Origin: Dehalococcoidales bacterium
GTDB taxonomy: Bacteria > Chloroflexota > Dehalococcoidia > Dehalococcoidales > GCA-2688105
Direction of reading: 5' to 3'
Length of the DNA: 42,167 nucleotides
Assembly: GCA_002688105.1 (NCBI GenBank)
Contig: NZBQ01000009.1
Location: forward strand, 21,389-63,555
The position numbers and the translations under genes were made by a program. This document shows positions 5,562-42,167 of this stretch, one piece after another (the first letter of the stretch is position 1; every line of letters begins with the position of its first letter). The notes beneath the pieces were generated by a model that was given only the letters and a program-made list of their open reading frames with translations, did no database searches and was not told the origin of the DNA.

Positions 5562-5672
5562 TAAACGCGTTGCATTATAAATAATGTTATTGTAGTGCAT
5601 AATAAAATCCTTGATTACTTGTTAAGAGGGGATAGTTACCATAAATCATTAGCTCTAAAAGGAGGTATAAGG

Positions 5673-6044: not shown

Positions 6045-6067
6045 CAAAACATTTGCCAACTAAGTAG

Positions 6068-6265
6068 CAGAAGCATCCGCACAAGCCTGACCGGTATGCC
6101 AGAGCTGTAACAAGGTCTATCACCATCAAAGACGAAGCACATATCCAACTTAGAGAACAGTTGCCTGAATAGTTCGAAGGCGACTTTGAGATAGCACTCC
6201 AGTTAGCCAGTGAACTTGACTTCCTATCCGAAAATGGCGATAATAAGGTTCGGCATCCTTCCTAA
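6068..6265 (+). pseudogene. Possible decayed gene fragment with one in-frame TAG
   Basis: In frame 2 this stretch reads as plausible protein (KHPHKPDRYARAVTRSITIK, then EAHIQLREQLPE, a TAG at 6170-6172, then FEGDFEIALQLASELDFL and SENGDNKV) ending in TAA 6263-6265. It has no start codon with a ribosome site and is bounded upstream by TAG 6065-6067. The composition (acidic, Leu/Glu-rich helices) looks like a remnant of a coding region. The tRNA-Asn promoter lies inside its end, so any gene here is no longer functional. It may equally be chance; a recent nonsense mutation is a second alternative. Confidence 0.3.
6216..6244 (+). promoter_or_regulatory. Sigma-70-type promoter for tRNA-Asn
   Basis: TTGACT at 6216-6221 and GATAAT at 6239-6244 are separated by 17 bases. 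Transcription would begin near 6251, about 30 bases before the mature tRNA. Confidence 0.6.
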
Positions 6266-6282
6266 GTGGACAGCCAGAGCAC

Positions 6283-6357
6283 TCCCTGGTAGCTCAATGG
6301 TAGAGCGGGCGGCTGTTAACCGCTAGGTTGTAGGTTCGAGTCCTACCCGGGGAGCCA
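6283..6357 (+). tRNA. tRNA-Asn (anticodon GTT), CCA encoded
   Basis: A full cloverleaf can be folded by eye. The acceptor stem TCCCTGG (6283-6289) pairs with CCGGGGA (6347-6353). The D arm is GCTC/GAGC, and the anticodon stem GGCGG/CCGCT has loop CTGTTAA with GTT at 6315-6317. The T arm is GTAGG/CCTAC around TTCGAGT. The discriminator G is at 6354 and an encoded CCA at 6355-6357, followed by a T run (6360-6364) that may help termination. Confidence 0.96.
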
Positions 6358-6419
6358 ATTTTTCTCCATAATTACTAGAGCTAAAACTCACTACCACCAT
6401 AACCTTTCCTCCCCTTCTT

Positions 6420-6449
6420 TTGAGCGCAATTTAGAGGCTGTGATATAAT
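6420..6449 (+). promoter_or_regulatory. Extended -10 promoter immediately upstream of prfA
   Basis: TTGAGC (6420-6425), an 18-base spacer and TATAAT (6444-6449) preceded by TG at 6441-6442 form an extended -10. The prfA ATG is at 6461, so the predicted transcript start (about 6455-6457) leaves a leader of only a few bases. Confidence 0.55.
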
Positions 6450-6460
6450 ATTGAGGCAAT

Positions 6461-7543
6461 ATGGAAAAAATCATACAAGACCAATTGAAAAGAGTTGAGA
6501 AGCGTTCTCAGGAGCTGGACCACCAGCTAGCCACGCCTGAGATAACCTCCGACCTTGAACGACTGCAAGTCCTGGCTCAGGAGAAAGCCGGCCTGGAAGA
6601 ACTGGTAACCAGGTATCGGGAATATAAAGTTGTCTCCGGGTCACTAAAGGAAACCAGGGCAATGCTGGGTACTGGACTAGACGAAGACATGACGACTTTA
6701 GCCAGGCAAGAGATAGCCAGCCTTGAGTCACGCCTGGGCCAGCTACTTCAAGAGATAACACTCGCCCTACTGCCCAAGGATGCCAATGATGAAAGAGACA
6801 TCATCATGGAAATCAGAGCCGGGGCTGGTGGTGACGAAGCGGCTCTGTTTGCCGCTGACCTCTTCCGCATGTATAGTCGGTATGCCCAATCTAAAAGTTG
6901 TGGTATAGACATTATTGACCATAATGAAAGCGATATAGGCGGCTTCAAGGAAATCATTTTTGAAATAAAGGGTAAAGGTGCCTTCAGCCGACTCAAGCAT
7001 GAAAGGGGAGTCCACCGGGTGCAGCGAGTGCCCACCACCGAATCCTCGGGCAGAATTCACACCTCAACCGCCACGGTAGCCGTTCTCCCCGAAGCCAGTG
7101 AGGTAGAGGTATCAGTAAAACCCGACGACCTGAGAATTGACATCTTCCACAGTGGCGGCGCCGGAGGACAGCACGTCAATAAGGTAGCCACCGCTGTCCG
7201 TATCACCCATTTACCTACCGGTATCGTTACTACCTGCCAGGATGAACGCTCACAATTAAGAAACAAAAATAAGGCGATGTCAGTGCTCCGAGCCCGACTC
7301 CTGGATATAAAGCAGCGTAAACAGGACGATGAAATAACCTCTCAGCGCCGCTCCCAGGTGGGCACTGGCGACCGTGCCGAAAAGATACGAACCTATAATT
7401 TCCCTCAAGACCGGGTTACTGACCACCGCATCGGACACTCCCTCCGTAATCTGCCCCGAATCCTGGAAGGAGAGCTTGACGAACTCATTAATGCCCTAGC
7501 CGCCCACGACCAAGCCAAGCAGTTAGAAAAGCAACTGGCATGA
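6461..7543 (+). CDS. prfA: Peptide chain release factor 1
   Basis: 360 residues, the usual RF1 length. It recognises UAA/UAG stops and triggers peptide release on the ribosome. The universal GGQ loop is at residues 235-237 in SGGAGGQHVNKV. The codon-recognition tripeptide is PTT at 191-193 (PxT, the RF1 type; RF2 has SPF). The RRSQVGTGDRAEKIRTYNFP segment near the C-terminus is typical. ATG 6461 is preceded by GAGG at 6453-6456. The stop overlaps the start of prmC (ATGA), so the factor is co-expressed with the enzyme that methylates its GGQ glutamine, a widely conserved pairing. Confidence 0.97.
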   Translation: MEKIIQDQLKRVEKRSQELDHQLATPEITSDLERLQVLAQEKAGLEELVTRYREYKVVSGSLKETRAMLGTGLDEDMTTLARQEIASLESRLGQLLQEITLALLPKDANDERDIIMEIRAGAGGDEAALFAADLFRMYSRYAQSKSCGIDIIDHNESDIGGFKEIIFEIKGKGAFSRLKHERGVHRVQRVPTTESSGRIHTSTATVAVLPEASEVEVSVKPDDLRIDIFHSGGAGGQHVNKVATAVRITHLPTGIVTTCQDERSQLRNKNKAMSVLRARLLDIKQRKQDDEITSQRRSQVGTGDRAEKIRTYNFPQDRVTDHRIGHSLRNLPRILEGELDELINALAAHDQAKQLEKQLA

Positions 7544-8382
7544 CTCTAAAACAGGCTATTCATCACGCCCGAGGTAGTCTGGCCGCTAAGAACATAGAAG
7601 ACGCCCTACTGGAGAGTGAGCTGCTGCTAAGACACGCACTGAAGATAAGCCAGACTCAATTATATATAGACTTCGACCGGGAATTAAGTCCCAAACAAGA
7701 GAAAACCTTCTGGAATCTGGTTAAACGCCGCCTTAAGGGTGAGCCCACCGCCTATATAATCGGGCATCGCGAGTTCTATGGGTATGATTTCCAGGTGAAC
7801 CATGATGTCCTCATCCCCCGACCGGAAAGCGAGTTGCTGGTAGAAAAGGCTATCCAGATAGCGCAAAATCGCTCAGGAGTTACTATCGCCGAAATTGGTA
7901 CTGGCTGCGGGGCTATCGCCATCAGCCTGGCACTAAACCTGCCAAAAGCTAAAATCTATGCTACCGATATATCAGCCCCGGCCCTCAAAGTAGCCCAAGC
8001 CAACTGCCAAAAACACGGAGTGACCGAGAGAGTTTGCCTCTTACCAGGGGATATGCTCGACCCCTTGCCTGAGCCGGTTGACCTGATAGTAGCCAATCTC
8101 CCTTATGTTGGGGAATCAGAATTGCCTATCCAGACTAGTTCTGAACCGCGGCTGGCATTAGATGGAGGCCCGGATGGGCTGGAAAAGATACGCCAGCTAG
8201 CCAGTCAACTAAATAGCAAACTTAACCCTGAGAGCTACCTGCTCCTGGAGATGGGACAGGGACAGGAAAAGGCGGTAACCACCACTTTATCCAGCCTCTT
8301 CCCCTCAGCTAAGATAGAGGTAACGCCAGACCTGGCTGGCATAGACCGCGTAGTAAGTCTCCACCTGACCCGACTGTCCTGA
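7540..8382 (+). CDS. prmC: Release factor glutamine methyltransferase PrmC (HemK)
   Basis: 280 residues. It methylates the glutamine of the GGQ motif of release factors using S-adenosylmethionine. The N-terminal helical domain (about 1-75) recognises the factor. The SAM-binding motif I is EIGTGCGAIAISLAL, and the substrate-amide motif, usually NPPY, is NLPY at 186-189, a known variant. RPESELLVEKA is the conserved pre-motif. The ATG overlaps the prfA stop by four bases. It is the last gene of this plus-strand unit and converges on the EF-G paralogue with a seven-base gap; no terminator hairpin is visible between them. Confidence 0.96.
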   Translation: MTLKQAIHHARGSLAAKNIEDALLESELLLRHALKISQTQLYIDFDRELSPKQEKTFWNLVKRRLKGEPTAYIIGHREFYGYDFQVNHDVLIPRPESELLVEKAIQIAQNRSGVTIAEIGTGCGAIAISLALNLPKAKIYATDISAPALKVAQANCQKHGVTERVCLLPGDMLDPLPEPVDLIVANLPYVGESELPIQTSSEPRLALDGGPDGLEKIRQLASQLNSKLNPESYLLLEMGQGQEKAVTTTLSSLFPSAKIEVTPDLAGIDRVVSLHLTRLS

Positions 8383-8389
8383 TGCCAAG

Positions 8390-10438
8390 CTAATCCTTCT
8401 CAGCTTGCCTTTCGGCAATAACCTTCTGAGCAACGTTAGCTGGCACTTCCTCATAGTGGCTGAAGTCTACAGTATAGCTACCTCTGCCTTGAGTTATTGA
8501 CCTGAGGTCGATAGCGTAGCGCAAAATCTCAGCCAGCGGCACTTGAGCCTCGATAACATTGGCTCCATGTTCAAGATTCATACCCAGCACCTTGGCCCGT
8601 TTGGTATTAAGACCGCCAATAATATCACCGGTAAATTCCTCAGGAACCCTCACCTCAGTATTCATTATCGGTTCAAGGAGAATTGGCTGCCCTTGAGCTA
8701 ATCCCTTCTTCAGCGCCTGGGCTCCAGCAATTTTGAAGCATATTTCCGAGGAATCAACCGGGTGAAAGCTACCATCATACAGAGTTGTTTTTATGTCAAC
8801 TACCGGGTAACGAGCCAAAATCCCCTCGTGAACTGCCTCATTAACCCCTTTCTCTACCGCCGGGATATAATTCTTGGGCACAGAACCGCCAACTACCCTT
8901 GCCGCAAACTCATCGCCACTGCCGCGGGGTAAAGGCTCAATCTCCAACAACACATGCCCATACTGTCCGTGCCCTCCAGATTGCTTCTTGTGCTTATACT
9001 CAGCCTTGGCCGGCACGGTAATCGTCTCTTTATAGGGAACTCTTGGGGTGGACAGCTCGACGTTGACACCGAATTTACGCATCATTCTCTCCACCGCCAC
9101 TTCAAGGTGAGTCTCACCAAGCCCGGATAGAATTGTCTCATTGGTATCCGTCTCCCGACGCACCTGAAGCGTGGGGTCCTCCTCAGCTAGTCGAGACAAT
9201 GCCCCTCCCAGCTTATCTACATCAGCTTTAGTCTTAGGATGTACCGCAGCACTAAAAATCGGCTCAGGGAATATAATGGGAGCAATTTTTACCGGCTTAT
9301 CCTTGCTACACAAGGTATCCCTGGTATTGGTCAAGCTCAATTTGGCTACCGCTCCTATATCCCCAGCCCCAACCTTAGGCACCGGCTCCTGGTTCTTACC
9401 TCTCAGCATAAACAACTGCCCGATGCGTTCCATCCCATTCTGCAGCGCGTTCCACGCCTGAGAATTGCTCTCAATAGCGCCAGTGTAAACCCGAAAGTAG
9501 GTAAGTTTACCCACATATGGGTCAGCACTGGTCTTAAACACCAGAGCCGCCAGGGGAGCCTCCTGGCTTGGTTCGATTGTTTTATCGTCAGCCAGAAATA
9601 CCTCTCGCTCCTTGGGGGATGGCAAATAACTATGTACGGCGTCCAGCAGCGAGCTAACCCCTATATTCCTGGTAGCTGAACCAACCAAAACCGGCACAAT
9701 CTTGCCAGCAATCACACCCTGCCGTAAGCCGCTAATTATCTCCTCCGGACTGAGTTCTTCACCAGATAGATACTTCTCCAATAACCTATCGTCAATTTCA
9801 GCCACCGCCTCTACTAATTTCTCACGAAAAGAATCAACTTGAGCCGACAATGATGAGGGTATTTCCGACTCCTTGGCGGGAGAACCGGTATAGCCTTTCT
9901 TGGTCAGCAGGTCAACAACCCCCTGGAAATCATCCTGAGCGCCAATTGGTAACTGCACCGGTACACATTTACGACCGAGCTTCGATTGAAGCTCTTCCAT
10001 GATACGGTAGAAATCAGCATTCTCACGGTCCATCTTATTAACCAAGATAAGTCGAGGCAGATTAGCTTCCTCACTATATCCCCACACCTGCTCACTGCCC
10101 ACCTCAACGCCGGAGGCGGCACAGATTACAATTACCGCCCCTTCGCTGACCCGTATGGCTGCCCTGACCTCACTAACGAAGTCAGCATAACCGGGAGTAT
10201 CAAGCAGGTTAATCTTAGTCTCCTTCCACTCAGTGGGAAGCAGGGCTAAGTTAAGGCTAATCTTACGCTTTACCTCATCAGGGTCGTAATCCGAGGTAGT
10301 AGTACCATCGTCAACCTTGCCGAAACGGGTAACAACTTCAGCAGTAAACAAAATTGCTTCTGACAGCGATGTCTTACCGGCACCACAATGAGACAGTAAA
10401 ACAACGTTACGAATATTCTCCAACCCATACTGCTTCAT
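8390..10438 (-). CDS. Elongation factor G paralogue (EF-G2-type translational GTPase)
   Basis: 682-residue five-domain EF-G-family GTPase. The P-loop is SHCGAGKTS (16-24) where canonical EF-G has a His-Asp-Ala-Gly-Lys loop. The G3 motif is DTPGYADF (80-87), with Tyr in place of the catalytic His of DTPGH, and G4 is NKMD (134-137). Domain IV and V segments such as GGHGQYGHV, EPIMNTEVRVPEEFTGDIIG and QGRGSYTVDFSHYEEVP are intact. This matches the EF-G2/FusA2 paralogue group, not the main fusA. ATG 10438 is preferred over TTG 10441 because AGGTGAT lies five bases before it. It is monocistronic with its own promoter (10473-10502). Whether it translocates, recycles ribosomes or acts under stress cannot be told. 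Confidence 0.88.
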   Translation of the reverse strand: MKQYGLENIRNVVLLSHCGAGKTSLSEAILFTAEVVTRFGKVDDGTTTSDYDPDEVKRKISLNLALLPTEWKETKINLLDTPGYADFVSEVRAAIRVSEGAVIVICAASGVEVGSEQVWGYSEEANLPRLILVNKMDRENADFYRIMEELQSKLGRKCVPVQLPIGAQDDFQGVVDLLTKKGYTGSPAKESEIPSSLSAQVDSFREKLVEAVAEIDDRLLEKYLSGEELSPEEIISGLRQGVIAGKIVPVLVGSATRNIGVSSLLDAVHSYLPSPKEREVFLADDKTIEPSQEAPLAALVFKTSADPYVGKLTYFRVYTGAIESNSQAWNALQNGMERIGQLFMLRGKNQEPVPKVGAGDIGAVAKLSLTNTRDTLCSKDKPVKIAPIIFPEPIFSAAVHPKTKADVDKLGGALSRLAEEDPTLQVRRETDTNETILSGLGETHLEVAVERMMRKFGVNVELSTPRVPYKETITVPAKAEYKHKKQSGGHGQYGHVLLEIEPLPRGSGDEFAARVVGGSVPKNYIPAVEKGVNEAVHEGILARYPVVDIKTTLYDGSFHPVDSSEICFKIAGAQALKKGLAQGQPILLEPIMNTEVRVPEEFTGDIIGGLNTKRAKVLGMNLEHGANVIEAQVPLAEILRYAIDLRSITQGRGSYTVDFSHYEEVPANVAQKVIAERQAEKD

Positions 10439-30545: not shown

Positions 30546-31397
30546 TCACCTTTTCGGTGGAAAGTATAAATCTTCAGCTATATCAGCCACTCGCCTTAAA
30601 ATCTCGGGTCTGACGTCACGCAGCAATGGAAGGTCCAGCCTGGCCTGCGTGATGATATCAGGGTCTAATTCCCTCTGAATGATTTCGTCGTTAAGGTCCT
30701 CTCCATATTGTGCGCTCTCTATAATTTGAGCAGCGTTATCGACTATGCAGGAGCCGCCTTCAAAAACCACTCCTTCCTGTGGGCCAATCTCATTCACAAA
30801 GGCGAAAAAGGCTTGATTTTCCACTGCCCGGGCTTGGGCGAGAAGCCGGAAAACATCAGGGACTTTAAAAGGAGAAGCCGAAATGTTAAACAGCAGCCAG
30901 GCTCCCTGGAGCGCACAGCACCTCTCTATCTCTGGGAACCAGAAATCGTAACAAATTTCTACCCCAATTTTACCGAACCTGGTATCAAACACCTTGATGT
31001 CAAAGCCCGGTTTAAAGAAGAGATGCTCTTCGTATCGGACCCCGGCATATTCAAAGGTTACCAAATGGAGCTTTCGATAGACCCCTAAAACCCCGTCAGG
31101 CTCAATTAACACTGCTGAATTATGGGCTAAGCTCCCGTTCAACTCCGGCATACCGAAAAGGATATCAATGTTCTTATCTTTAGCCAGTTTGACCACTTTT
31201 TCAGTTGCAGGTCCTCCAATTGGTTCCGCATGTTCCAACCATCTTTTACCACATACATACCCGGTCAGAGCCATCTCAGGAAAGGCAACGAAGTCAGCCC
31301 CATCCTTGGCCGCCTGGCTGGAAAGGTCCAGAATCTTTTCCAGATTCCGCTTTTTGTTATGAAGCTCTGGCTTCATCTGCACTAAAGCTAATTTCAT
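30546..31397 (-). CDS. Carbon-nitrogen hydrolase (nitrilase superfamily)
   Basis: 283 residues. The catalytic triad is complete: Glu41 (FPEMALTGY), Lys109 (YRKLHLV) and Cys149 (GVEICYDFWFPE). Members cleave amides, N-carbamoyl groups or nitriles. The gene lies between the duplicated Cys-rich protein and a PreA-like dihydropyrimidine dehydrogenase. This supports an N-carbamoyl (beta-ureidopropionase- or N-carbamoylcysteine-type) substrate, but amidase or omega-amidase activity is equally possible. TAGGAGG precedes the ATG by about nine bases. Confidence 0.9.
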   Translation of the reverse strand: MKLALVQMKPELHNKKRNLEKILDLSSQAAKDGADFVAFPEMALTGYVCGKRWLEHAEPIGGPATEKVVKLAKDKNIDILFGMPELNGSLAHNSAVLIEPDGVLGVYRKLHLVTFEYAGVRYEEHLFFKPGFDIKVFDTRFGKIGVEICYDFWFPEIERCCALQGAWLLFNISASPFKVPDVFRLLAQARAVENQAFFAFVNEIGPQEGVVFEGGSCIVDNAAQIIESAQYGEDLNDEIIQRELDPDIITQARLDLPLLRDVRPEILRRVADIAEDLYFPPKR

Positions 31398-31446
31398 AAA
31401 ACCTTCCCTCCTAAGATTTTGGGCTATATAGAAATTATCCTCAGGC

Positions 31447-32724
31447 TTACCACTCTATCCATCCGGTATCAACCGGACCTTCTCCTGCCCAGATCGTCTT
31501 GCCCGTTTTAGCATGAACGATAGAGATGGCACCAGTGGGGCAAATCCCGGCACAGAATCCACAACCCACGCACTCCACGTCATCTACCCCAATTTCGTCC
31601 TTATCTTTATCGGCACTTATAGCATCATGAATGCAGGTGATAACACACTGCATGCAGAAGTTACATTTGCCAACATCAAACTCAGGCAGAACAGGAGTGG
31701 ATACACTCTTTAGATCCAGCATTGCCTCTTCATGAGGAACATCTTTATATAGCTTCAGCTGAGGCAAAAGCTTACCTTTAAAGTCATTGATGCTGTTATA
31801 TCCTTTTCTCTCCATAAAGGCTTCAATTCCGTTAAGGATTTCGGGGAACACTCGCGCACCCTTAAAATATAGCGAAGAAACCATCTGAACCGTCGGACAG
31901 CCGAGAAGAATGTACTCGAGAGCATCCTCTGTCTTGAAAATGCCACCGCAGCCTGATACTTCAAGGTCACAGGCTTGTTTGATCTGAGCCACTTTGGCAA
32001 TTCCCCACCACTTCAAAGATGGCCCGGGAATATAACCGACCAGGGTGTTTGCTCCCCTGATTACTTCATTCTCCACATCAATTGAAAAGCCTCCAGGTGC
32101 ATTGACCGCCGTGCAGAAATCAGCCCCACCGTCCCTCTGAGCAATAACAGCTATCCTATCAAGCCTTCTAATGGTAGGTGAAAGTTTAATGCCGACGGGA
32201 ATATTTACTGCCTTCTTTACCGCGGCAGTCAGCCTGGCGGTAATCCCGGGGTCTTCTCCAAGCTCAATTTCATCGTAATTATCCGATTCTCCCGGCGCCA
32301 GCGGACAGCCTAAATCCAATTCAATGGCTTCAACCCCAGCCGCTTCTACCAACTGGGCTAACTCGCCCCAATCATCTAAGTCTGCCCCCCGACCAACAAT
32401 ACTCTGTATCCACCTGGCATTGTATTTCTGGCATATTTCCTTGAATCTTGGAGCCTCTTCTTTAGCCCAAACATCCGGGGGTATGGTGCTTAACAATTCC
32501 CCCTCTGTCATGGCTCCTTTTAGGCCATGCCTGCTTAACGGATAAAAGGTCGGCCTAATATAACTGCGTAACTTTGGGTCAGATGTTACCGTTTTGGCGA
32601 GTACACCGCCAGCCCCGGCTTTCAGCCATTTCTCGGTAACCTTCGCCCACTCGGTTATACCGGCACAACCGGCAATCAGCGGATTTTTAAAGGTCAATCC
32701 TACCATTCTCGTCTTTAGTGACAA
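31447..32724 (-). CDS. preA: PreA-like dihydropyrimidine dehydrogenase subunit (FMN barrel plus 2x[4Fe-4S])
   Basis: 425 residues. A dihydroorotate-dehydrogenase-like FMN barrel (1-345; LTFKNPLIAGCAG, IELDLGCPLAPG, GIKLSPTI, SGCGGIFKTEDALEYI) is fused to a C-terminal ferredoxin domain with CNFCMQCVITC and CVGCGFCAGICP. This is the PreA layout, not PyrD. It would reduce uracil or thymine, or a similar ring, with electrons through the clusters. TTG 32724 lies six bases after AGGGGAG and gives the family N-terminus; the ATG-type start at 32778 has no ribosome site. The usual PreT partner is not adjacent, so another electron donor is expected. Active-site Cys cannot be confirmed by eye. Confidence 0.8.
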   Translation of the reverse strand: MSLKTRMVGLTFKNPLIAGCAGITEWAKVTEKWLKAGAGGVLAKTVTSDPKLRSYIRPTFYPLSRHGLKGAMTEGELLSTIPPDVWAKEEAPRFKEICQKYNARWIQSIVGRGADLDDWGELAQLVEAAGVEAIELDLGCPLAPGESDNYDEIELGEDPGITARLTAAVKKAVNIPVGIKLSPTIRRLDRIAVIAQRDGGADFCTAVNAPGGFSIDVENEVIRGANTLVGYIPGPSLKWWGIAKVAQIKQACDLEVSGCGGIFKTEDALEYILLGCPTVQMVSSLYFKGARVFPEILNGIEAFMERKGYNSINDFKGKLLPQLKLYKDVPHEEAMLDLKSVSTPVLPEFDVGKCNFCMQCVITCIHDAISADKDKDEIGVDDVECVGCGFCAGICPTGAISIVHAKTGKTIWAGEGPVDTGWIEW

Positions 32725-32802
32725 CTTAACTCCCCTTTCTTTTTCGAGATAAAGAAATCGCATTATACCCAGAGACACATATTAGTCTCGCAATAATGAA
32801 AT

Positions 32803-33732
32803 TTAGACTTCTCCCTTGATGTAAGGGACAGCCAACTTCCTAGGCGGAACAGCTTTCCTCACCACACCGACTATACCGACTAAGACAATTACGGTTACAA
32901 CATAGGGCAACATAAGGAGTAGCGGGAACGGGACAGGAACTCCTGCCGCCTGCAGCTGCATCTGTAGGGCATCAATAAAAGCAAACAGAAGTGAACCACC
33001 AAGTATACCCCACGGGTTCCACCCGCCGAAGATGACAATACAAAGAGCTATAAATCCACGGCCGGCGGTCATATTCTCACTGAATCTATGTAATACTGCT
33101 AATGGTAGATATGCCCCACCAAATCCTGACATGGCACCAGTGATAAGAACACTGAGGTAACGCATTTTGGGGACACTGTATCCAGCCATATCAACTGCTA
33201 ATGGGTTCTCCCCCGTTGCTCTAACAAGTAAACCAAAGCGTGTCCGGAACATAATAAGGGCAAAAACGACAACCAAAAGCATGGCAATGTAAAACAGGAC
33301 ATTCTGCTGGAAGATGACTGGACCGATTCCAGGGAGGTCGCTCAGCACTGGTATTTGAACAGATGCAAAACCATCTAGAGGGTCCGTGATGCCCACTGTT
33401 CTAAATATAAAGGAACTAATTCCCATACTAAACAGCCATATGGCTATGCCACTGATTATCTGGTTAGTTTTAAATGTTATCGACAAACAGGCGTGGACTA
33501 GACTGAGCGCCGCACCGGCCAGCATTCCTATAACTATGCCAAACCACACATTGCCGGTAGTAACCGCCGCAAGGTATGAGGCTACAGCACCCATTAACAT
33601 ATATCCTTCAACACCTACGTTATATACTCCAGACCGCTCTGAAACTGCCTCACCCAACGACGGAACGAGCAAAGCAAAACTCATCCGTAGGGTAGCCGCT
33701 AACACCGGGATTATAAGTGGGTAAAAATCCAT
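32803..33732 (-). CDS. BMP-type ABC importer permease (nucleoside family), second permease
   Basis: 309 residues, about eight to ten membrane helices, BPD_transp_2 family. The conserved segment GVYNVGVEGYMLMGAVASY is at about 36-54. ATG 33732 has GGGAGGGG at proper spacing; TTG 33756 upstream is less likely. It lies four bases after the first permease's stop. It forms the membrane channel with the preceding gene. The substrate is most likely a nucleoside or purine-like base, as for the family. Confidence 0.88.
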   Translation of the reverse strand: MDFYPLIIPVLAATLRMSFALLVPSLGEAVSERSGVYNVGVEGYMLMGAVASYLAAVTTGNVWFGIVIGMLAGAALSLVHACLSITFKTNQIISGIAIWLFSMGISSFIFRTVGITDPLDGFASVQIPVLSDLPGIGPVIFQQNVLFYIAMLLVVVFALIMFRTRFGLLVRATGENPLAVDMAGYSVPKMRYLSVLITGAMSGFGGAYLPLAVLHRFSENMTAGRGFIALCIVIFGGWNPWGILGGSLLFAFIDALQMQLQAAGVPVPFPLLLMLPYVVTVIVLVGIVGVVRKAVPPRKLAVPYIKGEV

Positions 33733-33760
33733 ATATCTACCCCTCCCTTTTAACAATCAG

Positions 33761-34825
33761 TTAATCATGATGAATCTTAAATAGATTTTCAAAGCGTTGC
33801 TCTAGGAATGGCAGTAGCACCAAAGCCAACATAATGACAGCCACTAATACATGAACCACGGTAACATCAAGGCCAAGACTTGACTGAACATAATGGCTCC
33901 CAGATAATAACCCTCCCAGGAATATCGCCATAATCACTGCCCCCAGAGGATGCAACCTTCCAACAAAAGCAACTACTATGGCTAGAAACCCGTAACTAAC
34001 AGAAATATTATCTGCCAGCACATGGAAAATCCCTGATACCTGAGCCATCCCGGCAATACCAGACAGACCACCACTTAAAATCATAGAAGTTACAACAATT
34101 TTCCTAACCGGTATACCACCATACAATGCTGTATCAGGATTTACACCTACAGCTTTAATATGATAGCCGTAGGTACTCTTTTGCAAAATGAACCAGACCA
34201 CTACTGCCAGTACCAAGGCTATTATGAATCCCGCATGTGCGCCAGTTCCCGGCAGTATTGGCAGCCAGGCGGTAGGCCATATTTGTTCACTTACCGGAAA
34301 ACCGGCCGCAGTAGTTGACCTCCACGGAAACTTTATCAAATAAGATACAAACCATACAGCAATGAAAACCATGAGTAGAGAAGTGATGATTTCGTTGGTA
34401 TTGAATCTGGCTCGTAAATATCCAGGTATTGCTCCCCATACCGCCCCAAAAATGAAGGCAAATATAACCATTAAGAGAATCTGCAACGGCCCGGGTATAC
34501 TGGGAACAAAATATCCGGCTATAAGAGCCCCTACTGCTCCCATATACAATTGCCCTTCAGCACCTATGTTCCATATTCCAGCCCTGAATACCAGTAAAAG
34601 TCCTAAAGCACAAAATAGAAGAGGGGTCGCCTGATTTAGCGCCTGACCTAGCCTATGTAAACTCCCAAAGCCTCCGCTAAACAAGCCCAAAAACACTTCT
34701 CCGGGATTGAACCCGGAAATAGCAACTAAAATTGAAGTAATCCCAAATGCTACAGCAAACACGATTAATAAAGGGATTACCTTGCTAAGATAATAGCCCC
34801 GCCTTGGGGATAAACGTAATCTCAC
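33761..34825 (-). CDS. BMP-type ABC importer permease (nucleoside family), first permease
   Basis: 354 residues, about ten membrane helices, BPD_transp_2 family. It starts with a basic cytoplasmic segment (RLRLSPRRGYYLSK), then the first helix (about 16-38). The family signature GIWNIGAEGQLYMGAVGA is at about 83-100. The GTG start at 34825 is two bases after the ATPase gene's stop, with GAGG upstream. Confidence 0.88.
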   Translation of the reverse strand: MRLRLSPRRGYYLSKVIPLLIVFAVAFGITSILVAISGFNPGEVFLGLFSGGFGSLHRLGQALNQATPLLFCALGLLLVFRAGIWNIGAEGQLYMGAVGALIAGYFVPSIPGPLQILLMVIFAFIFGAVWGAIPGYLRARFNTNEIITSLLMVFIAVWFVSYLIKFPWRSTTAAGFPVSEQIWPTAWLPILPGTGAHAGFIIALVLAVVVWFILQKSTYGYHIKAVGVNPDTALYGGIPVRKIVVTSMILSGGLSGIAGMAQVSGIFHVLADNISVSYGFLAIVVAFVGRLHPLGAVIMAIFLGGLLSGSHYVQSSLGLDVTVVHVLVAVIMLALVLLPFLEQRFENLFKIHHD

Positions 34826-34827
34826 TG

Positions 34828-36360
34828 CTAGCCCTCACCTCCTCCACCGCCAACCATCAGTCTTTCTATCTCACTTCTATTAATTTTGTCGTGGGGGAAC
34901 ATCGTCATTTTCCCCTCAAACATAACTCCAACCCTATCGGATAATCTCAAAACCTCATCCAGGTCATAAGAGACTAATAAAGTCGCTTTCCCATTTTCTC
35001 TCTGCTCTACTAGTCTCTCATTCACAAACTCAACAGTTTTGGCATCCAAGCCTCTGACCGGTTGGGCAGCAATTATAAGCTCCGGCTCCCAGGCGAATTC
35101 TCTGGCTAAGACCATCTTCTGTAGATTCCCGCCTGATAAATGCCTGGCTAGCGCATCTATTCCCCTCGTTATCACATTATACTTTTTGACCTGCTTTTCA
35201 GCGAAGCTCCTGATGGGAAGAAAATTCAAAAACGGGAAACGATTGGAAAGAAATCTGTAGATAAAAGGAGGCTTATCTTCTCGTCCCAGGATTAGATTCT
35301 CGCTAATGGCCAAATCACTAAACGAGCCCATCTTCATCCGCTCCTCGGGGATATGCGCCATTCCCATCTCCCTCCGAGCTTTTGGCGAGTAATTGGTTAC
35401 CTCTTTCCCTTTGAACAATATACTGCCTTCTTCAACTTTGCGCAGGCCAGTAATAGCCTCAATCAGCTCTTTCTGACCATTACCAGCTACACCAGCTACA
35501 CCCACAATCTCGCCTTTTAAGACATTAAAGGATATTTCTTTAATCCTGGTTAGCCTCCGAACATCCTTGACATGCAAATTTTTTACCTCTAAAACTGGGG
35601 ATCTATCCTTGGCGGCTATTGGCTTATATTCCCGAACAGTTACCTTTCCCCCAAACATTGCCTCAACCAATCCGGCATGAGTTGCGCCCTTGGCATCCTG
35701 CTCTGAGACAATCTTCCCATCTCTTAAAATTGTTATCCGGTCGGTGAGGAGTGCTTCCATCAATTTATGGGTAATAAATATAACCGATTTTCCTTGGCTG
35801 GTCATTGAGCGCAGTATCTTGAACAATTCCTCTGTCTCCTGAGAAGTAAGAACAGCCGTTGGCTCATCCAGAATGAGGATTTCCGCACCTTGGTAAAGGG
35901 CTTTAAGGATTTCGACACGCTGTTGCTCTCCCACCGATAGCTCCTCTACCTTTGCCTGTGCTTCTATGTGAAAGCCACAACTTTCTGCCAGAGCTAACAC
36001 CCTCCTCCGGGTTTCTTTCTCATCGATTAGAACGTTTCTGGCAGGAATATCTCCAAGAACAATATTCTCGCTGACGGTGAGCGGCAGAACCAAACTAAAG
36101 TGCTGAGATACCATCCCTATTTTCTGATTTATGGCATCTCTAGGGGACCTCAGCTTCATCTTTTGGCCTCTGATGTATAGCGCCCCTTCATCTGGCTGCC
36201 ATAAGCCGTAAAGAACGTTCATTAGAGTTGTCTTGCCGGCGCCATTCTCACCAAGCAGAGAATGTATCTCCCCCTCCTCCACCTGGAGAGTAATATTATC
36301 ATTAGCTACTAACTCTCCAAACCGTTTAACAATGTTCTCCATTTTCAGAATTGGTGCCAT
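34828..36360 (-). CDS. BMP-type ABC importer ATPase, two ABC domains
   Basis: 510 residues. The first ABC domain is canonical: Walker A GENGAGKT (37-44), signature LSVGEQQRVEIL and Walker B LILDEPTAVLT. The second has the degenerate P-loop GVAGNGQKEL and intact signature LSGGNLQKMVLAREF, the usual asymmetry of RbsA/YufO-type ATPases. ATG 36360 lies five bases after GGAGG; TTG 36372 is the upstream alternative. It couples ATP hydrolysis to the two permeases immediately downstream. Confidence 0.92.
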   Translation of the reverse strand: MAPILKMENIVKRFGELVANDNITLQVEEGEIHSLLGENGAGKTTLMNVLYGLWQPDEGALYIRGQKMKLRSPRDAINQKIGMVSQHFSLVLPLTVSENIVLGDIPARNVLIDEKETRRRVLALAESCGFHIEAQAKVEELSVGEQQRVEILKALYQGAEILILDEPTAVLTSQETEELFKILRSMTSQGKSVIFITHKLMEALLTDRITILRDGKIVSEQDAKGATHAGLVEAMFGGKVTVREYKPIAAKDRSPVLEVKNLHVKDVRRLTRIKEISFNVLKGEIVGVAGVAGNGQKELIEAITGLRKVEEGSILFKGKEVTNYSPKARREMGMAHIPEERMKMGSFSDLAISENLILGREDKPPFIYRFLSNRFPFLNFLPIRSFAEKQVKKYNVITRGIDALARHLSGGNLQKMVLAREFAWEPELIIAAQPVRGLDAKTVEFVNERLVEQRENGKATLLVSYDLDEVLRLSDRVGVMFEGKMTMFPHDKINRSEIERLMVGGGGGEG

Positions 36361-36673
36361 CTCACCCTCCAAACCAGCCTCATAGATATCTCCTCTGACG
36401 AAAGTTCTAATCTATTTACCATACTGAAGTCTGAATCCGCTCGACAGAATTATCTATAAAACTGCCATTACATATTTTACCCTACATCACATCGCACACC
36501 GACATACCCGCACTTTCTATGGCGTGCAGTCTATAAGTCAAATTACGCACCAAGTTCGCATCTCCAGGCAACCCTTGGGCAAGTCCTAAGACCTGCCCAA
36601 GAATCACCCCTTCTCCTCCCCTTTCCCTAGAGTAGAGAGGATAAAGTAAAGCCGACTACGAAGTGATCAAAGT
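36361..36673. other. 313-base intercistronic region between the binding protein and ATPase genes
   Basis: No gene is visible. On the minus strand a promoter-like pair TTGACT (36541-36536), a 16-base spacer and TAGAAA (36519-36514) could drive the ATPase-permease part separately. A strong hairpin at 36574-36601 is listed on its own. Confidence 0.4.
36574..36601 (-). other. Stem-loop downstream of the binding-protein gene
   Basis: CTTGGGCA (36574-36581) and TGCCCAAG (36594-36601) form a perfect 8-bp stem with a 12-base loop and no T run on the minus strand. It lies 73 bases after the stop of the solute-binding protein; such elements often stabilise that message relative to the transporter genes. 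Confidence 0.5.
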
Positions 36674-37834
36674 TCAGGGTAATTCTATGCCTAGTTCTTC
36701 AGCAGATGGTATATCGTAGTCATCAGGCCATACGGTCCCTATATAGTTTAGGGTTCTTAGCGACGGGACGTGTATCACCTCGGTGGCGATAGCCTCGGTG
36801 AGTTTGTCAGCTACAGCCGCGATTTCATCTGACACATTACTCACTGGAGCGATAGCTGGCCAGCCTTGTATGAGGGAATAATTAGAGGCCGTATGCGTAA
36901 TGGTGCCAGATCTGTAGTCCAGTAAGGCGCGTTCTGCCAAGAGATAATGGTCCAGAAGAACACTGGTTAGGATTATGTCAGGCGCCATGTCATGTTGATC
37001 ACGGACAACTCCTACAAACCATTTATTTTCCTCTTGGGCGGCCTTAAGAACTCCTAAGCCAGACTCATCGGCGTACTGAAAAATCACATCAGCACCCGTG
37101 GCAATCATCGCTTGGGCACTCTCATAGCCCTTCTCTGGGTCAATCCAACTGCCAACCACCATGAACTCCACTTGTATATCCGGATTAACCCACTTAGCCC
37201 CCAACTCCATACCGGTACCACACCTAATTAGCTCCGGATAATCAACGCCAACAACCAGGCCAATATGTTGGGCCTCTGACTTCATAGCGGCGATAGCTCC
37301 AGCTATGAAATAACCCTGTTCCTCTCTCCGGTCATAACCAGCAACATTACGTGGCAGCAGAGCAATCACCCCGGCATCAGAACCAGGTACAGCATACCAG
37401 GTATCCGGGTATTTAGGGGAAACCGCTTTCATAGCCTCACCCCAGGTTTGGCCGGAATCAGTGTAAAGAAGCTCAGTCCCCAACTCCCCTTGTACCTCCA
37501 GGAACGTAGGAAAATCACCCCAGGGAACCAAATCAGTAAAGGTGATATCAACTATATCCCCATACCTATCCTGGAGATATAGGTAAGCTTCGTAAATACC
37601 TTGAGACCAGGCGCCATCTGTCCTCGACCCAATGGTGGCGACGGCCACCGTGGTCTTCTCAACTTCCGGGACCGGGGCCGGTGCTGGCGCTGGGGCCGGG
37701 GCCGGTGCTGGGGCCGGTGCTGGCGCTGGGGCCGGGGCCGGTGCCGGGGCCGGTGCTGGAGCGGCACAACCAGCAATAGCTAATCCCGTTACCACTACCA
37801 CTGCAATCAGTAGCATTACCATTCTATTTTTCAT
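36674..37834 (-). CDS. BMP-family substrate-binding lipoprotein
   Basis: 386 residues. An N-terminal signal with lipobox IAGC (Cys23) is followed by a long Ala-Pro repeat (about 24-54), then the BMP/PnrA-like periplasmic-binding fold from about residue 62. Family segments include VATIGSRTDGAWSQGIYEAY, GADVIFQYADESGLGVLKAA and GVDYPELIRCGTGMELGA. It binds the ligand outside the membrane and delivers it to the two permeases. The Ala-Pro linker is a spacer that lifts the domain from the membrane. TAGGAGG lies nine bases before the ATG. First gene of the transporter operon. Confidence 0.9.
   Translation of the reverse strand: MKNRMVMLLIAVVVVTGLAIAGCAAPAPAPAPAPAPAPAPAPAPAPAPAPAPAPVPEVEKTTVAVATIGSRTDGAWSQGIYEAYLYLQDRYGDIVDITFTDLVPWGDFPTFLEVQGELGTELLYTDSGQTWGEAMKAVSPKYPDTWYAVPGSDAGVIALLPRNVAGYDRREEQGYFIAGAIAAMKSEAQHIGLVVGVDYPELIRCGTGMELGAKWVNPDIQVEFMVVGSWIDPEKGYESAQAMIATGADVIFQYADESGLGVLKAAQEENKWFVGVVRDQHDMAPDIILTSVLLDHYLLAERALLDYRSGTITHTASNYSLIQGWPAIAPVSNVSDEIAAVADKLTEAIATEVIHVPSLRTLNYIGTVWPDDYDIPSAEELGIELP
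37681..37752. repeat. Two 36-bp tandem repeats in the Ala-Pro linker
   Basis: 37681-37716 and 37717-37752 are the same 36-base unit with a single mismatch (37709 T versus 37745 C). Each unit codes for six Ala-Pro pairs, and the flanks contain further partial 12-base units. Confidence 0.85.
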
Positions 37835-38030: not shown

Positions 38031-39263
38031 TCAGTCTTTCTTGGAAGTTCCTTTCATCATTTCATCAAACAACATTACTGCCTTCTCCGAGAAAGCCGGG
38101 TCATTGATAGTCATATCCAGTTCAATAAACCTAACTGCGCTAGGATTTATCTTTTCCCTTATTACCTCAATGAATCTCCGACGACCTTCAGGGTCATGCA
38201 TCGGTGTCCCCTCTTCATCCAGCCGGGAAAAACTCCGAAGCGGGATTAGTAAAACGACAGGCCCTTTTGCTTTGTTTAGCCTCTCCGCCATTATCTCGGC
38301 TATTTCCACCTTCTCTTCTTGGCTAACCGGCACCTGAGCCGTCAAAGGATTGTGCCATCTAACCTCTCGGTTCTTATATTTCGCTGGCAGGGTATCTATG
38401 GCTCCGTTCCACTGGAACCAACTTATAGCACCCGGAGCAACAACCTGCGGAATACCCGTTTCACCGGCCGCCGTTAACTTCTCGTCACCGCCTTTAATCA
38501 CGCCACCACACACATAATTGGCTATCTCAAACATCGTGAAATCCAGTATGCCATCAATGTGTCCCTGTCTGATGAGAGTCTCGCAAGTCTTCATCCCTAT
38601 GGAATGGAAGACCGCCGGGTCATACCCCCTCTCAATAAGCATGTCCGAGCAATAATCGACGTGAGAAAATGCCGATGCACCCAGCGTGGTTATCGCTACC
38701 AACGGCTTCTCATCCTTTTCCTCCTGCTGGGTTTCCACCATGCCGCTTATCGCTCCAGCCGCCCTCCTCAATACCATCTTCGTTACTCTGTCCACACCAC
38801 ACGAATGCGTAACCGATTGCATCATTACCTGGTCCATCGCCACCGACTCGGGCGTCACCAATGCCGTATAGGTTATCGTCGATACCATTAACTTCGGGAT
38901 ATTAAACGGAAGCTCCTTCATCACCTTCAAACAAAGGGATGTCCCCATAGACCCACCAAGTCCAACTATGCCATCCAACTTTCCACCCGAAAGTAGCCTC
39001 TGAATAATATTTGAAGCTCCCTCAGCCATCACCGATATAGCTTCCGCTTCCTCCATGCCGGCAATCTCCTTGATGTCCTTCCCAATCGCCTTAGCTACTT
39101 CCTCATGAGTTACATCAGACTTAAAAGGAGGCTCCTTTAAGGCAGTACAAACATCTACCACTATGGTATTATGACCCCTCTCCCTGATGCGGTCTCTGAT
39201 ATATGCCGCCGCCTTACCTCTGGTATCTAAGGTAGCAATAATGGTGATACTCTTACTTTGCAT
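38031..39263 (-). CDS. UPF0261/Tm-1-like ATP-binding domain protein
   Basis: 410 residues. It begins KSITIIATLDTRGKAAAYIRD, the typical UPF0261 N-terminus. Family segments include GIVGLGGSMGTSLCLKVMKE, MVSTITYTAL and VVAPGAISWFQW, and the C-terminal half carries EGTPMHDPEGRRRFIEVI. The tomato Tm-1 relative binds ATP, but the bacterial role is unknown. Gap to the PEP-dikinase-like gene upstream is 33 bases, so it is probably co-transcribed. ATG 39263 has GAGGGGA nearby. Confidence 0.88.
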   Translation of the reverse strand: MQSKSITIIATLDTRGKAAAYIRDRIRERGHNTIVVDVCTALKEPPFKSDVTHEEVAKAIGKDIKEIAGMEEAEAISVMAEGASNIIQRLLSGGKLDGIVGLGGSMGTSLCLKVMKELPFNIPKLMVSTITYTALVTPESVAMDQVMMQSVTHSCGVDRVTKMVLRRAAGAISGMVETQQEEKDEKPLVAITTLGASAFSHVDYCSDMLIERGYDPAVFHSIGMKTCETLIRQGHIDGILDFTMFEIANYVCGGVIKGGDEKLTAAGETGIPQVVAPGAISWFQWNGAIDTLPAKYKNREVRWHNPLTAQVPVSQEEKVEIAEIMAERLNKAKGPVVLLIPLRSFSRLDEEGTPMHDPEGRRRFIEVIREKINPSAVRFIELDMTINDPAFSEKAVMLFDEMMKGTSKKD

Positions 39264-39296
39264 AAGTTATCCCCTCAACTATTTGGCTCTCTTTCT

Positions 39297-40943
39297 TTAA
39301 GCATTTTGCCTGGTTAGATAGTCCCCTATCTTTTGCCCCGCCGGGGACGACTCAGCCAACTTTAGCAGTTTATTTAAATCCTCATCCTGGTCAAGACTTA
39401 CCACTGGTACCTCCCCAAGTATTACCTCACCACTGCTTCCGTCGATAGAAATCTTATCCCCTTCCCTTATTATAGTGCCTTCAGGCATTCGGCACTGCTT
39501 GTCCTTATACTCAATACAAATTCCCTGGCATCCAACCACTGATGGTTTTCCCAGGTCACGGCATATAATAGCGGCGTGGCTAGAGGTACCACCCCTAGAA
39601 GTAACCAAACCCACAGCTGCCTTAATCCCGGCAACATCGGCCGGGGAAGTTTCTTGTCGCACCAGGATTACTTGTTCTCCCTTACCTTTCCAAACCAGAG
39701 CATCTTTAGGGGTAAAGACGACACGACCACTAACCACACCTGGAGAAATAGGAATCCCTGAGGTAATAACTTTTTTCTCGACAGAGTCAAGCTGAGTAGC
39801 CACTGACTGTTCCAACTGCTCCGTTGAGATTCTTGATAAGGCTTCTTCCTTAGTTATTAACCCCTCCTCCACCATATCAACAGCTATTTTTATCGCTGCC
39901 TTAGGCGTCCGTTTAGCGGTTCTACTCTGTAGCATAAAAAGTCTGCCTTCATCCACCGTGAATTCAACATCCTGAACGTCTTTATACCTCTTCTCCAATT
40001 TCTCCAAAGTTTTCTCTAAGGCAGGGTACACTTCCGGCATCTCTTCTCTTAGCTCCTCAATTTCTTTTGGTCTCCTGGTTCCCGCAACCACATCCTCTCC
40101 CTGGACATTCGTCAGATACTCACCATAGAGTCCTCTATTCCCCGTAGATATGTCCCGTGAAAAAACGACACCCGAACATGAGTTATCCCCACTATTGCCG
40201 AAGACCATTGTCTGAACGGTTACCGCCGTGCCCGGGAGGTCACCCGATATGTTTTTCATCCGGCGATACTCAATCGCCCTTGGGGTATTCCACGATTGGA
40301 ATACCCTGCCGATAGACCTCCACAACTGCTCATCAACACTTTCCAGAAAACTCTTACCATGTTTCTGGAAAACTTCCTCGAACTCCTGGGTGACATCTCG
40401 CAGGTCCTCCACTTCAAGCTGGGTTTCAGAGGTTAAATTCCCTTCGCTAACCTTATTCCTGATTATTATGTCAAACTCGCCATCTTCTATCCCCTCAACA
40501 GCAGTTCCAAAGCTTTGTAAGAGACGCCGATAGCAGTCCCACACAAACCAAGGGGCTTTATTATTCTTAATCAGCCTATCCACAATACTCCTGTTCAAAC
40601 CTATATTGAGCACTGTGTCCATCATGCCAGGCATAGAAACGGCTGCCCCAGAACGAGCCGAAACAAGAAGATGGTTTTCTGGGTCCCCAAACTTCCTGCC
40701 CGTGGCTCTCTCCAGCTTCCTGAGATTCGCATTAACCTCGTCTTTTAGCCCTGGTGGATACTGGCCTTCACCAGTGTAATATTTACCGACTTCGGCGGAT
40801 ATTATAAAGCCCGGAGGCACAGCTATTCCGATACTAGCCATATCCGCCAACCTAGCCCCTTTATTACCTAATATATCCCGTATTTCAAGGCTACCTTCAC
40901 CCTCACCGCTTTGGAAAAAGTAAACACGCTTCTCTACGCCCAT
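39297..40943 (-). CDS. PPDK/PEP-synthase-like protein lacking the PEP-binding barrel
   Basis: 548 residues against ~880 for pyruvate phosphate dikinase and ~800 for PEP synthase. It has the N-terminal ATP-grasp domain (about 1-370; GNKGARLADMASIGIAVPPG, SARSGAAVSMPGMMDTVLN, DVEFTVDEGRLFMLQSR) and a phosphohistidine swivel domain with His456 in RGGTSSHAAIICRDLG. The C-terminal PEP/pyruvate-binding TIM barrel is absent: the protein ends DYLTRQNA with a clean stop. It could phosphorylate its own His from ATP, but needs a partner for phosphate transfer to a substrate. Its ATG overlaps the stop of the winged-helix-like gene by ten bases. Confidence 0.85.
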   Translation of the reverse strand: MGVEKRVYFFQSGEGEGSLEIRDILGNKGARLADMASIGIAVPPGFIISAEVGKYYTGEGQYPPGLKDEVNANLRKLERATGRKFGDPENHLLVSARSGAAVSMPGMMDTVLNIGLNRSIVDRLIKNNKAPWFVWDCYRRLLQSFGTAVEGIEDGEFDIIIRNKVSEGNLTSETQLEVEDLRDVTQEFEEVFQKHGKSFLESVDEQLWRSIGRVFQSWNTPRAIEYRRMKNISGDLPGTAVTVQTMVFGNSGDNSCSGVVFSRDISTGNRGLYGEYLTNVQGEDVVAGTRRPKEIEELREEMPEVYPALEKTLEKLEKRYKDVQDVEFTVDEGRLFMLQSRTAKRTPKAAIKIAVDMVEEGLITKEEALSRISTEQLEQSVATQLDSVEKKVITSGIPISPGVVSGRVVFTPKDALVWKGKGEQVILVRQETSPADVAGIKAAVGLVTSRGGTSSHAAIICRDLGKPSVVGCQGICIEYKDKQCRMPEGTIIREGDKISIDGSSGEVILGEVPVVSLDQDEDLNKLLKLAESSPAGQKIGDYLTRQNA

Positions 40944-41503
40944 TCATCCCTCTCTTTGCCTAAAAGATTAATAAGATCCTCATGTAACTCGAACCATATA
41001 GTATGATAGGAATCCACACTGTATTTGGCTAGGTACTCTGTCTTGCCATCCTTAAGGTTCTGGAGAGCCCGGCTAAACCGGCTGGGATAAATTTCATACC
41101 TCGGAACTAGCTCGGTTAACCCCTGGAAAATTTCACCTACCCTAGCATGAACACCTTCTAACTCATCAAGAGCCTTTTGGTCATCCTTTCCTATCTGCCA
41201 TTCACTCACTATCTTTTTGAAAGTATTATTCTCCTCATCAAACTTTTCATAGACAGTTTCCAACTCCTTCTCCCGACCTTCCACCTCGGCTTTTCTAAAT
41301 TGACTAATCGCTTCTTCTCCGCTTTCAGTGAGCATCCACATACCATTATCCTCAGAAATATAACCCGTTTTAACACAGCCACCAAATAGTTCTCTCGTCT
41401 TGGCCGGCTCCATTTCAACTATTGAGGCGATAACATCCGGGTCTTCTATTGCCTGCCTGATATTTATATAGTTGAGAATCTTAAATTCATCCAGTGACAC
41501 CAT
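40934..41503 (-). CDS. Winged-helix-like partner protein of the PEP-dikinase cluster
   Basis: 189 residues. The N-terminal ~75 residues look like a winged helix (EPAKTRELFGGCVKTGYISE, then a short wing and GMWMLTESGEEAISQF). A long charged helical middle (75-125) and a C-terminal region SRFSRALQNLKDGKTEYLAK follow. No DNA-binding specificity can be read. The 10-base overlap with the PPDK-like gene implies tight coupling and a role as regulator or subunit. ATG 41503 has only a weak ribosome site (GGATGG). Confidence 0.65.
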   Translation of the reverse strand: MVSLDEFKILNYINIRQAIEDPDVIASIVEMEPAKTRELFGGCVKTGYISEDNGMWMLTESGEEAISQFRKAEVEGREKELETVYEKFDEENNTFKKIVSEWQIGKDDQKALDELEGVHARVGEIFQGLTELVPRYEIYPSRFSRALQNLKDGKTEYLAKYSVDSYHTIWFELHEDLINLLGKERDEWA

Positions 41504-41587
41504 AATACTACCATCCCTTATAGACTTTATCGTCCCAAGAAAACTTATAATTTCAGAAATTCAAGATTTCCTTGAGTTGATTCTAGC

Positions 41588-42167
41588 TCAAACACGTTTA
41601 AGAATTGTCACAATGCCTTCATCACCATCCACCCTGATAATATCCCCGGTCTTGATTTTACGGGTGGCAACCCTGGTGCCCACAACGGCGGGAACCCCTT
41701 CTTCCCGGGCAATGATAGCCGCATGACACATGTTCCCACCGGCATCCAGCACTACGCCTTTGCTCCTTACCAGAACCGGCCCCCAGGCCGGCGCTGTCGA
41801 AGACGTAACCAGGATATCACCATTCTTTACCTTATAGCTCTCTGAGAATCTGGGGATGACTACGGCCGGCCCTTCAGTAACACCAGCCGAGGCGGCTACA
41901 CCATTCACCACATCACTTTCCTCTTCCTCAGCCCTTTCCCATTCTTCCAGCCTCTCCTTGGTTATGCCCCATAGCATTACCGTAGATGGGTCAGAAAACT
42001 CTCCCTCAGGAAATACCCCAAGCAAGGTAGGAGGAGTATACTCACATAACTTCTCCCACATCATTTTTCTCTTGGCCACCTTCTTCTTCCAGTAAATATC
42101 CTTCACCGGTATGCCTACACCCCACGCCTGACAGACATCAAATATTACCTCATCTAATTCATACCTC
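41588..42167 (-). CDS. PEP-utilising-enzyme mobile-domain protein (5' end outside window)
   Basis: The frame is open to the window's right edge, so the gene begins beyond 42167; 192 C-terminal codons are visible (an internal GTG at 42106 is not the start). The C-terminal ~90 residues form a phosphohistidine swivel domain with GGNMCHAAIIAREEGVPAVVG, where Cys stands in the usual Ser position next to the catalytic His. The preceding segment MLWGITKERLEEWE resembles PEP-synthase-like proteins such as phenylphosphate synthase subunits, from memory. It sits 84 bases before the winged-helix-like gene in the same direction. Confidence 0.75.
   Translation of the reverse strand, partial: RYELDEVIFDVCQAWGVGIPVKDIYWKKKVAKRKMMWEKLCEYTPPTLLGVFPEGEFSDPSTVMLWGITKERLEEWERAEEEESDVVNGVAASAGVTEGPAVVIPRFSESYKVKNGDILVTSSTAPAWGPVLVRSKGVVLDAGGNMCHAAIIAREEGVPAVVGTRVATRKIKTGDIIRVDGDEGIVTILKRV

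Follow-up and report, generated by a model that had tools for sequence, protein, structure and literature searches.

The window analyzed here is a 42,167-nucleotide stretch of a Dehalococcoidales bacterium genome (Chloroflexota; GenBank assembly GCA_002688105.1, contig NZBQ01000009.1, hereafter C9). At its right end lie four genes, which had been read from the sequence alone as a split phosphoenolpyruvate (PEP)-dikinase cluster. They encode a 548-residue relative of pyruvate, phosphate dikinase (PPDK), a 189-residue protein (D189), a UPF0261 protein, and a second swivel-domain protein, here called PepA. All four open reading frames (ORFs) were recovered as first described, together with the 10-bp overlap of the D189 and 548-residue genes and the 33-bp gap between the latter and the UPF0261 gene.

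38031-39263, minus strand: UPF0261 (Tm-1-like) protein with Pfam UPF0261 N- and C-terminal domains; a recurrent neighbor of HpeH-type subunits
39297-40943, minus strand: 548-residue barrel-less PPDK (VadK-like) with PPDK-type ATP-grasp and swivel domains, His456
40934-41503, minus strand: D189 protein, 189 residues, with the conserved SYHTIWFELHEDLI signature (His167, His174)
41588-42166, minus strand: C-terminal 192 residues of PepA (HpeH/PpsA-type), a PEP-utilizers swivel domain with phospho-His563
Contig C11 (L010), 7877-9219: remainder of the completed 607-residue PepA

As first read, the second swivel protein is cut by the window edge. This edge is the real end of C9 (the window is C9:21389-63555), and the final 99 bases of C9 match the end of contig C11 exactly. 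Joining the two contigs completes PepA as a protein of 607 residues with a C-terminal swivel domain (phospho-His563, in the motif GGNMCH) and without a barrel; no barrel-domain gene was found on extension beyond position 42167. The sole close intact PepA paralog, on contig C7, is 100% identical to C11 over 1.1 kb and then 8 to 24% different before and through the overlap. Because the C7 paralog diverges from C11 just ahead of the overlap, the C11-C9 join, which is inferred from the assembly overlap, is favored and well supported.

Two paralogs in the same genome deserve mention. The C7 copy (L011, 4064-5896) adjoins a BMP transporter, and the 5′ 1.1 kb that it shares with C11 may reflect recent duplication, strain variation, or a chimera. 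On contig C5 (L012, ∼7755-8523), the remnant of a PepA paralog is split between reading frames, two in number, and has Arg at the position of the phospho-His (MCRAAI); it is likely a pseudogene.

Acceptor-side and ATP-side proteins

The part of PepA inside the window matches the PEP-utilizers family (Pfam, 6e-23). The completed protein aligns over its full length, at 34.6% identity, with a PEP-utilizing enzyme encoded on an Azoarcus (KH32C) plasmid; the gene for this enzyme directly precedes PpsB-like, CBS-domain (in the PpsC position), and ppcBDAG genes in an annotated pps-ppc cluster. With PepA spanning two contigs, a structure was modeled for a 38%-identical Chloroflexota homolog (L063) instead. 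The model has a predicted local distance difference test score (pLDDT) of 90 and a predicted template modeling score (pTM) of 0.88, and its top structural matches are rifampin phosphotransferase (RPH) entries 5fbt, 5fbu, and 5hv1, over most of the length (E of ∼1e-18; template modeling score of ∼0.6 on the query). HpeH is arranged as an acceptor-binding, RPH-like domain followed by a C-terminal swivel, for which the motif T/SxxGGxxxH has been reported (PMC12167813). The PepA swivel keeps the GG, Met, Cys, and His of this region (GGNMCH), with Met two positions before His, and carries Leu at the Thr/Ser position. By sequence comparison, PepA belongs with HpeH and PpsA.

The 548-residue protein has PPDK_N (2e-45) and PEP-utilizers (8e-23) domains and no Pfam domain after them. 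Its residues 4 to 527 align with solved PPDKs (lowest E against PDB chains, 1e-140), including the ATP-site motifs GNKGARL, SARSGA, DVQDVEFT, and LQSRTAKRT and the swivel motif at His456. The domain assignments and this alignment agree with the first reading of an ATP-grasp plus swivel protein that ends without a barrel, and the ORF is intact with a clean end. Among NCBIfam models, it scores slightly over the cutoff of a 534-residue "pyruvate, phosphate dikinase" model and far under that of full-length PPDK. Several genomes of the same order (L192-L198) carry PPDK-like ORFs of ∼650 to 810 residues without ∼80 positions of the ATP-grasp profile.

The lack of a PEP-binding barrel noted at first extends beyond the 548-residue protein and the completed PepA: PF02896 had no match in the whole source genome (91% complete), whereas it was present in 14 of 14 control genomes and in 52 of 60 searched genomes of the class. 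An ordinary split PPDK is therefore unlikely.

Relatives of D189 tie this small protein to the ATP side. A scan of 84,980 species returned at least 581 relatives, and 80 loci were kept. In 69 of these, the locus also encodes a PPDK-type protein that has ATP-grasp and swivel domains but no barrel, and the two are fused in 56; in several, D189 is a separate neighboring gene, as in the window. In other Chloroflexota, the D189 homolog forms the C-terminal part of one long ATP-grasp, swivel, and D189 protein, and fusions to the end of a barrel-less PPDK occur in dozens of Chloroflexota and Actinomycetota. The family ends in a near-invariant SYHxxWFELHEDLI signature. A model of a fused homolog (pLDDT, 87.5; pTM, 0.65) resembles PPDK and, to a weak degree (E of ∼0.05), PadR/VanR regulators, the latter presumably through its D189 part. 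Many homologs are annotated as MarR regulators, and a profile search with D189 matched no solved structure. The initial description of D189 as winged-helix-like has weak profile matches and this faint PadR/VanR resemblance on its side. Of the two roles first offered for it, third subunit or regulator, the former fares better: because its relatives occur fused with the ATP-side protein, D189 is likelier to be an integral subunit than a separate regulator, and it is probably not a free one.

The 548-residue protein and D189 resemble VadK and Rv1126c of mycobacteria. VadK (Rv1127c) of Mycobacterium tuberculosis is a barrel-less PPDK that autophosphorylates on His422 and interacts with methylcitrate-cycle enzymes; coexpression of its operon partner, Rv1126c, raised VadK solubility (PMC13400623). 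In a Mycobacterium locus (L147) and on M. avium plasmid pP7a, a barrel-less PPDK gene is directly followed by a D189 gene, the layout described for Rv1127c and Rv1126c. From this arrangement we infer that the D189 family includes Rv1126c.

Two other D189 loci differ in layout. On a Rhodococcus plasmid (L176, 7375-9546), an "AMP-binding" protein with a terminal D189 domain is encoded directly before a VadK-type gene. On the Methylibium petroleiphilum PM1 plasmid (L167, 6684-17552), a D189 gene and a gene for a free 149-residue swivel-type protein are closely followed downstream by a B12-dependent mutase cluster, and the acceptor subunit of this locus may be divided into still more parts.

Conserved association and exchange of partners

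The association of these genes, which the original prediction had put forward for checking, is conserved across phyla. HpeH-like, D189-type, and VadK-like genes are colocated in Chloroflexota, Actinomycetota, and Pseudomonadota. The triad is found on annotated plasmids of Rhodococcus, M. avium, and Diaphorobacter (HpeH-D189-VadK, the window's order), and profile searches added a Novosphingobium plasmid and two further Rhodococcus. L076, from another genome of the source genome's class, has an HpeH-type gene immediately ahead of one for a fused VadK-D189 protein. Of the 17 Chloroflexota D189 loci that span 13 kb or more, 15 also carry a second swivel (HpeH-type) gene and 16 carry CoxL. Literature searches gave no description of the triad.

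HpeH-type genes were found with one kind of ATP-side partner or the other. Across 117 loci, they stand beside an HpeI-type gene (11 loci) or beside VadK-type plus D189 genes (51 loci) and never beside both; among the 97 loci with either ATP-side type, 11 have the HpeI type, 86 have the VadK type, and none has the two together. Seeding the survey with D189 guaranteed that D189 would be constant there; it did not guarantee the absence of the HpeI type. HpeI-type and VadK-type ATP sides seem exchangeable next to one kind of acceptor subunit, and their mutual exclusion fits substitution better than added regulation.

We also compared 301 Chloroflexota genomes. Among the matches listed, a second PPDK-type match occurs in 13 of 13 D189-bearing genomes besides G000 and G226, versus 3 others; this comparison uses the number of matches per genome, and full-length PPDKs blur a direct count of barrel-less forms. 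In G000 and G226, the only PPDK-type match of this sort is the VadK-type protein itself. An HpeH-like search of 12 actinobacterial genomes, 11 of them without such a gene near VadK, gave matches in all 12, largely through shared swivel homology, and was not counted as evidence.

A proposed dikinase and competing explanations

We propose, with a probability of about two in three, that three of the four genes specify a small-molecule dikinase, with PepA as its acceptor side and the 548-residue protein plus D189 as its ATP side, replacing HpeI/PpsB. As in the reactions of PPDK and HpeHI, ATP would phosphorylate a histidine and AMP would be released, and His563 on the PepA swivel would deliver the phosphate to an acceptor held by the N-terminal helical domain of PepA. 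The VadK-type/D189 pair would do the job of HpeI/PpsB, with D189 forming an integral part of the ATP side, as domain or subunit. The PepA swivel would either dock directly on the ATP-grasp domain of the 548-residue protein or take the phosphate from His456. Most likely, the cluster works like phenylphosphate synthase. The original suggestion of a split enzyme of that kind with a nonpyruvate acceptor gains support from PepA-PpsA homology, gene linkage, and the barrel-less genome. The likeness holds for the split design; it does not hold for the ATP side, which is of the PPDK/VadK type with its own swivel, unlike PpsB and HpeI.

Several points weigh against this proposal. In the alignment, PepA has Leu at the position of the Thr/Ser found in RPH and in the T/SxxGGxxxH motif. 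Of 58 long D189 loci, 23, almost all from Actinomycetota, have no second swivel protein. The only VadK-type protein studied, Rv1127c, has been taken for a kinase that regulates the methylcitrate cycle (PMC13400623). The 548-residue protein, in a tree built from 76 ATP-grasp plus swivel regions, has a long branch among full-length PPDKs, outside the VadK and fused clades; because of this placement, its pairing with D189 may have arisen more than once. In approximately unbiased (AU) tests, placing every D189-linked protein in one clade was not rejected (p-AU, 0.08), and joining the 548-residue protein to the Chloroflexota fused group alone was rejected (p-AU, 0.02). Finally, in the source genome, the linkage of the cluster to CoxMSL and MttB genes on C11 depends on the 99-bp contig overlap, and PepA could be served by an HpeI-type protein whose gene, on contig C10, adjoins a different HpeH-type gene.

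A bolder form of the proposal, which we hold tentatively and think doubtful, is a two-swivel phosphorelay from ATP to His456, then by way of D189 as docking site or carrier to PepA His563 and the acceptor, in the style of the phosphotransferase system but without PEP; VadK proteins generally would then be ATP-side parts. If so, VadK proteins, the mycobacterial one included, would be dikinase ATP sides and not dedicated protein kinases.

It is also conceivable, though improbable, that the 548-residue protein and D189 act as a VadK-like regulatory histidine kinase on enzymes of the neighboring pathway, with PepA as a separate small-molecule dikinase subunit. The findings on M. tuberculosis VadK (autophosphorylation of His422, binding of methylcitrate-cycle enzymes, help from Rv1126c in solubility; PMC13400623) lend themselves to such a reading, as do the weakly PadR/VanR-like fold of D189 and the MarR annotations of its homologs. 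Against a regulatory role, the mutual exclusion of VadK-type and HpeI-type partners beside HpeH-type genes fits substitution better, the contexts of the triad vary across phyla, and the VadK paper makes no mention of HpeH-type proteins.

The HpeI-type protein on C10 belongs to a second dikinase operon of the source genome:

Contig C10 (L085), 60-6870: HpeI-type protein (340 residues, ATP-grasp only), HpeH-type protein (563 residues), UPF0261, and DUF849-like and OadA-like proteins (the last two names assigned by eye)

The presence of this ATP-grasp-only protein would allow it to be PepA's true partner and the 548-residue protein and D189 to be bystanders. We judge this quite unlikely: the C10 gene directly precedes an HpeH-type gene of its own and UPF0261, the HpeH-D189-VadK order recurs in Diaphorobacter, and an HpeH-type gene precedes the fused VadK-D189 gene of L076.

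That the 548-residue protein is a decaying, functionless PPDK would suit its long branch among PPDKs and its missing barrel, but it is very improbable given that the aligned ATP-site motifs and the phospho-His are all kept, that the ORF is intact, with a clean end and a 10-bp overlap with D189, and that D189-associated barrel-less forms are maintained across many genomes. A complete PPDK or PEP synthase split by the assembly, which had been named as the finding that would overturn the prediction, is scarcely credible: the cluster does stop at a contig break and the C7 paralog does share 1.1 kb with C11, but the 548-residue ORF ends within the contig with UPF0261 33 bp on, neither the completed PepA nor the genome has PF02896, and independent genomes have the same arrangement.

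Surrounding genes and comparison with known systems

Downstream of the cluster, and in the same direction, are genes for likely uptake and possible catabolism.

36674-37834, minus strand: BMP/PnrA-type substrate-binding lipoprotein
32803-36372, minus strand: ABC transporter ATPase and two permeases
30546-32778, minus strand: PreA-like protein of the dihydroorotate/dihydropyrimidine dehydrogenase family and carbon-nitrogen hydrolase

The best NCBIfam matches of the transporter ATPase and one permease are putative B6/BMP-type transporters, below curated cutoffs. The lipoprotein likely serves uptake for the dikinase pathway, and the PreA-like protein and hydrolase could catalyze downstream catabolic steps. 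On C11, upstream of PepA and in the same direction, are genes for a corrinoid protein, an MttB-family methyltransferase, CoxM/S/L-type molybdenum hydroxylase subunits, and DUF1989. The compound that accepts the phosphate is probably a catabolic substrate tied to the adjacent CoxMSL molybdenum hydroxylase and imported by the BMP-type transporter. Our guess from the neighbors is a hydroxylated, nucleobase- or N-heterocycle-like compound; the hints are the PreA-like protein, the carbon-nitrogen hydrolase, the BMP transporter, the molybdenum hydroxylase, MttB/corrinoid, and DUF1989, none of them specific. A further MttB-corrinoid pair in the source genome (L014, 2322-6535) is accompanied by a nitrilase-like gene and a BMP transporter.

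UPF0261 and the dikinase probably share a pathway. UPF0261 and HpeH-type genes are both present in 21 of the 301 Chloroflexota genomes and lie at most 15 kb apart on one contig in 14 of these 21, from five families. PF09370, which we take to be the TIM-barrel partner family of UPF0261, was absent from the source genome in a profile search. The usual coevolution partner of UPF0261 is a TIM-barrel protein (PMC5028733). The third UPF0261 gene of the source genome (L234, 4228-7270) adjoins a GTP-type PEP carboxykinase-like gene (named by eye).

If the proposed dikinase is correct, VadK can be seen as something other than a protein kinase, in a way open to direct test; members of the D189/Rv1126c-type family, which often bear the label of MarR regulators, would likely serve as enzyme domains; and UPF0261, a family of unknown function, would be tied to small-molecule phosphorylation.

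Among known systems, the cluster resembles HpeHI, CreHI, and PpsAB (PMC12167813), with an acceptor domain and C-terminal swivel on one subunit and ATP-grasp on another, no PEP barrel, and adjoining catabolic genes, and AMP-forming chemistry would be expected of it; PepA also shares Met-Cys-His at the phospho-His with HpeH. It differs in having Leu in place of the conserved Thr/Ser and in its ATP side: HpeI and PpsB are ATP-grasp only, whereas the 548-residue protein is of the PPDK type with its own swivel, plus D189. We therefore treat the cluster as a variant, not a strict member, of the two-component dikinases. PpsABC of the Thauera/Aromatoleum/Azoarcus type likewise combines a full-length PepA homolog (PpsA), a separate ATP-side protein, and a small third protein, which is a CBS-domain protein there and D189 here. 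The joined locus has no UbiD-profile match, and the genes examined include neither a phenylphosphate carboxylase (ppc/UbiD) nor a CBS protein; both are present in Azoarcus. UbiD genes adjoin HpeH plus HpeI pairs in L061-L063. The 25-hydroxysteroid kinase, considered as a related dikinase, was dropped after a term search of the paper gave no dikinase or PEP-synthase relationship.

RPH has the acceptor domain and swivel fold of the HpeH-type subunit, but in a single chain with a single swivel. PPDK is homologous to the 548-residue protein across ∼520 residues of ATP-grasp and swivel and differs in its PEP/pyruvate-binding barrel. VadK/Rv1126c shares with our cluster the barrel-less ATP-grasp plus swivel protein, the barrel-less genome, and an adjacent small D189-type partner. 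Unlike VadK, described as a regulatory kinase, the 548-residue protein has an HpeH-type acceptor subunit encoded directly upstream, and it branches with PPDKs, not with VadK-type proteins. The HpeHI two-component dikinase family was described in 2025 (PMC12167813) and the barrel-less PPDK VadK in 2026 (PMC13400623), and neither paper mentions the other's system. What is new here is the joining of VadK/D189 to the HpeHI/PpsAB family: judged from gene linkage, domain fusion, and mutual exclusion, the two kinds of ATP side seem to be alternative halves of one enzyme design.

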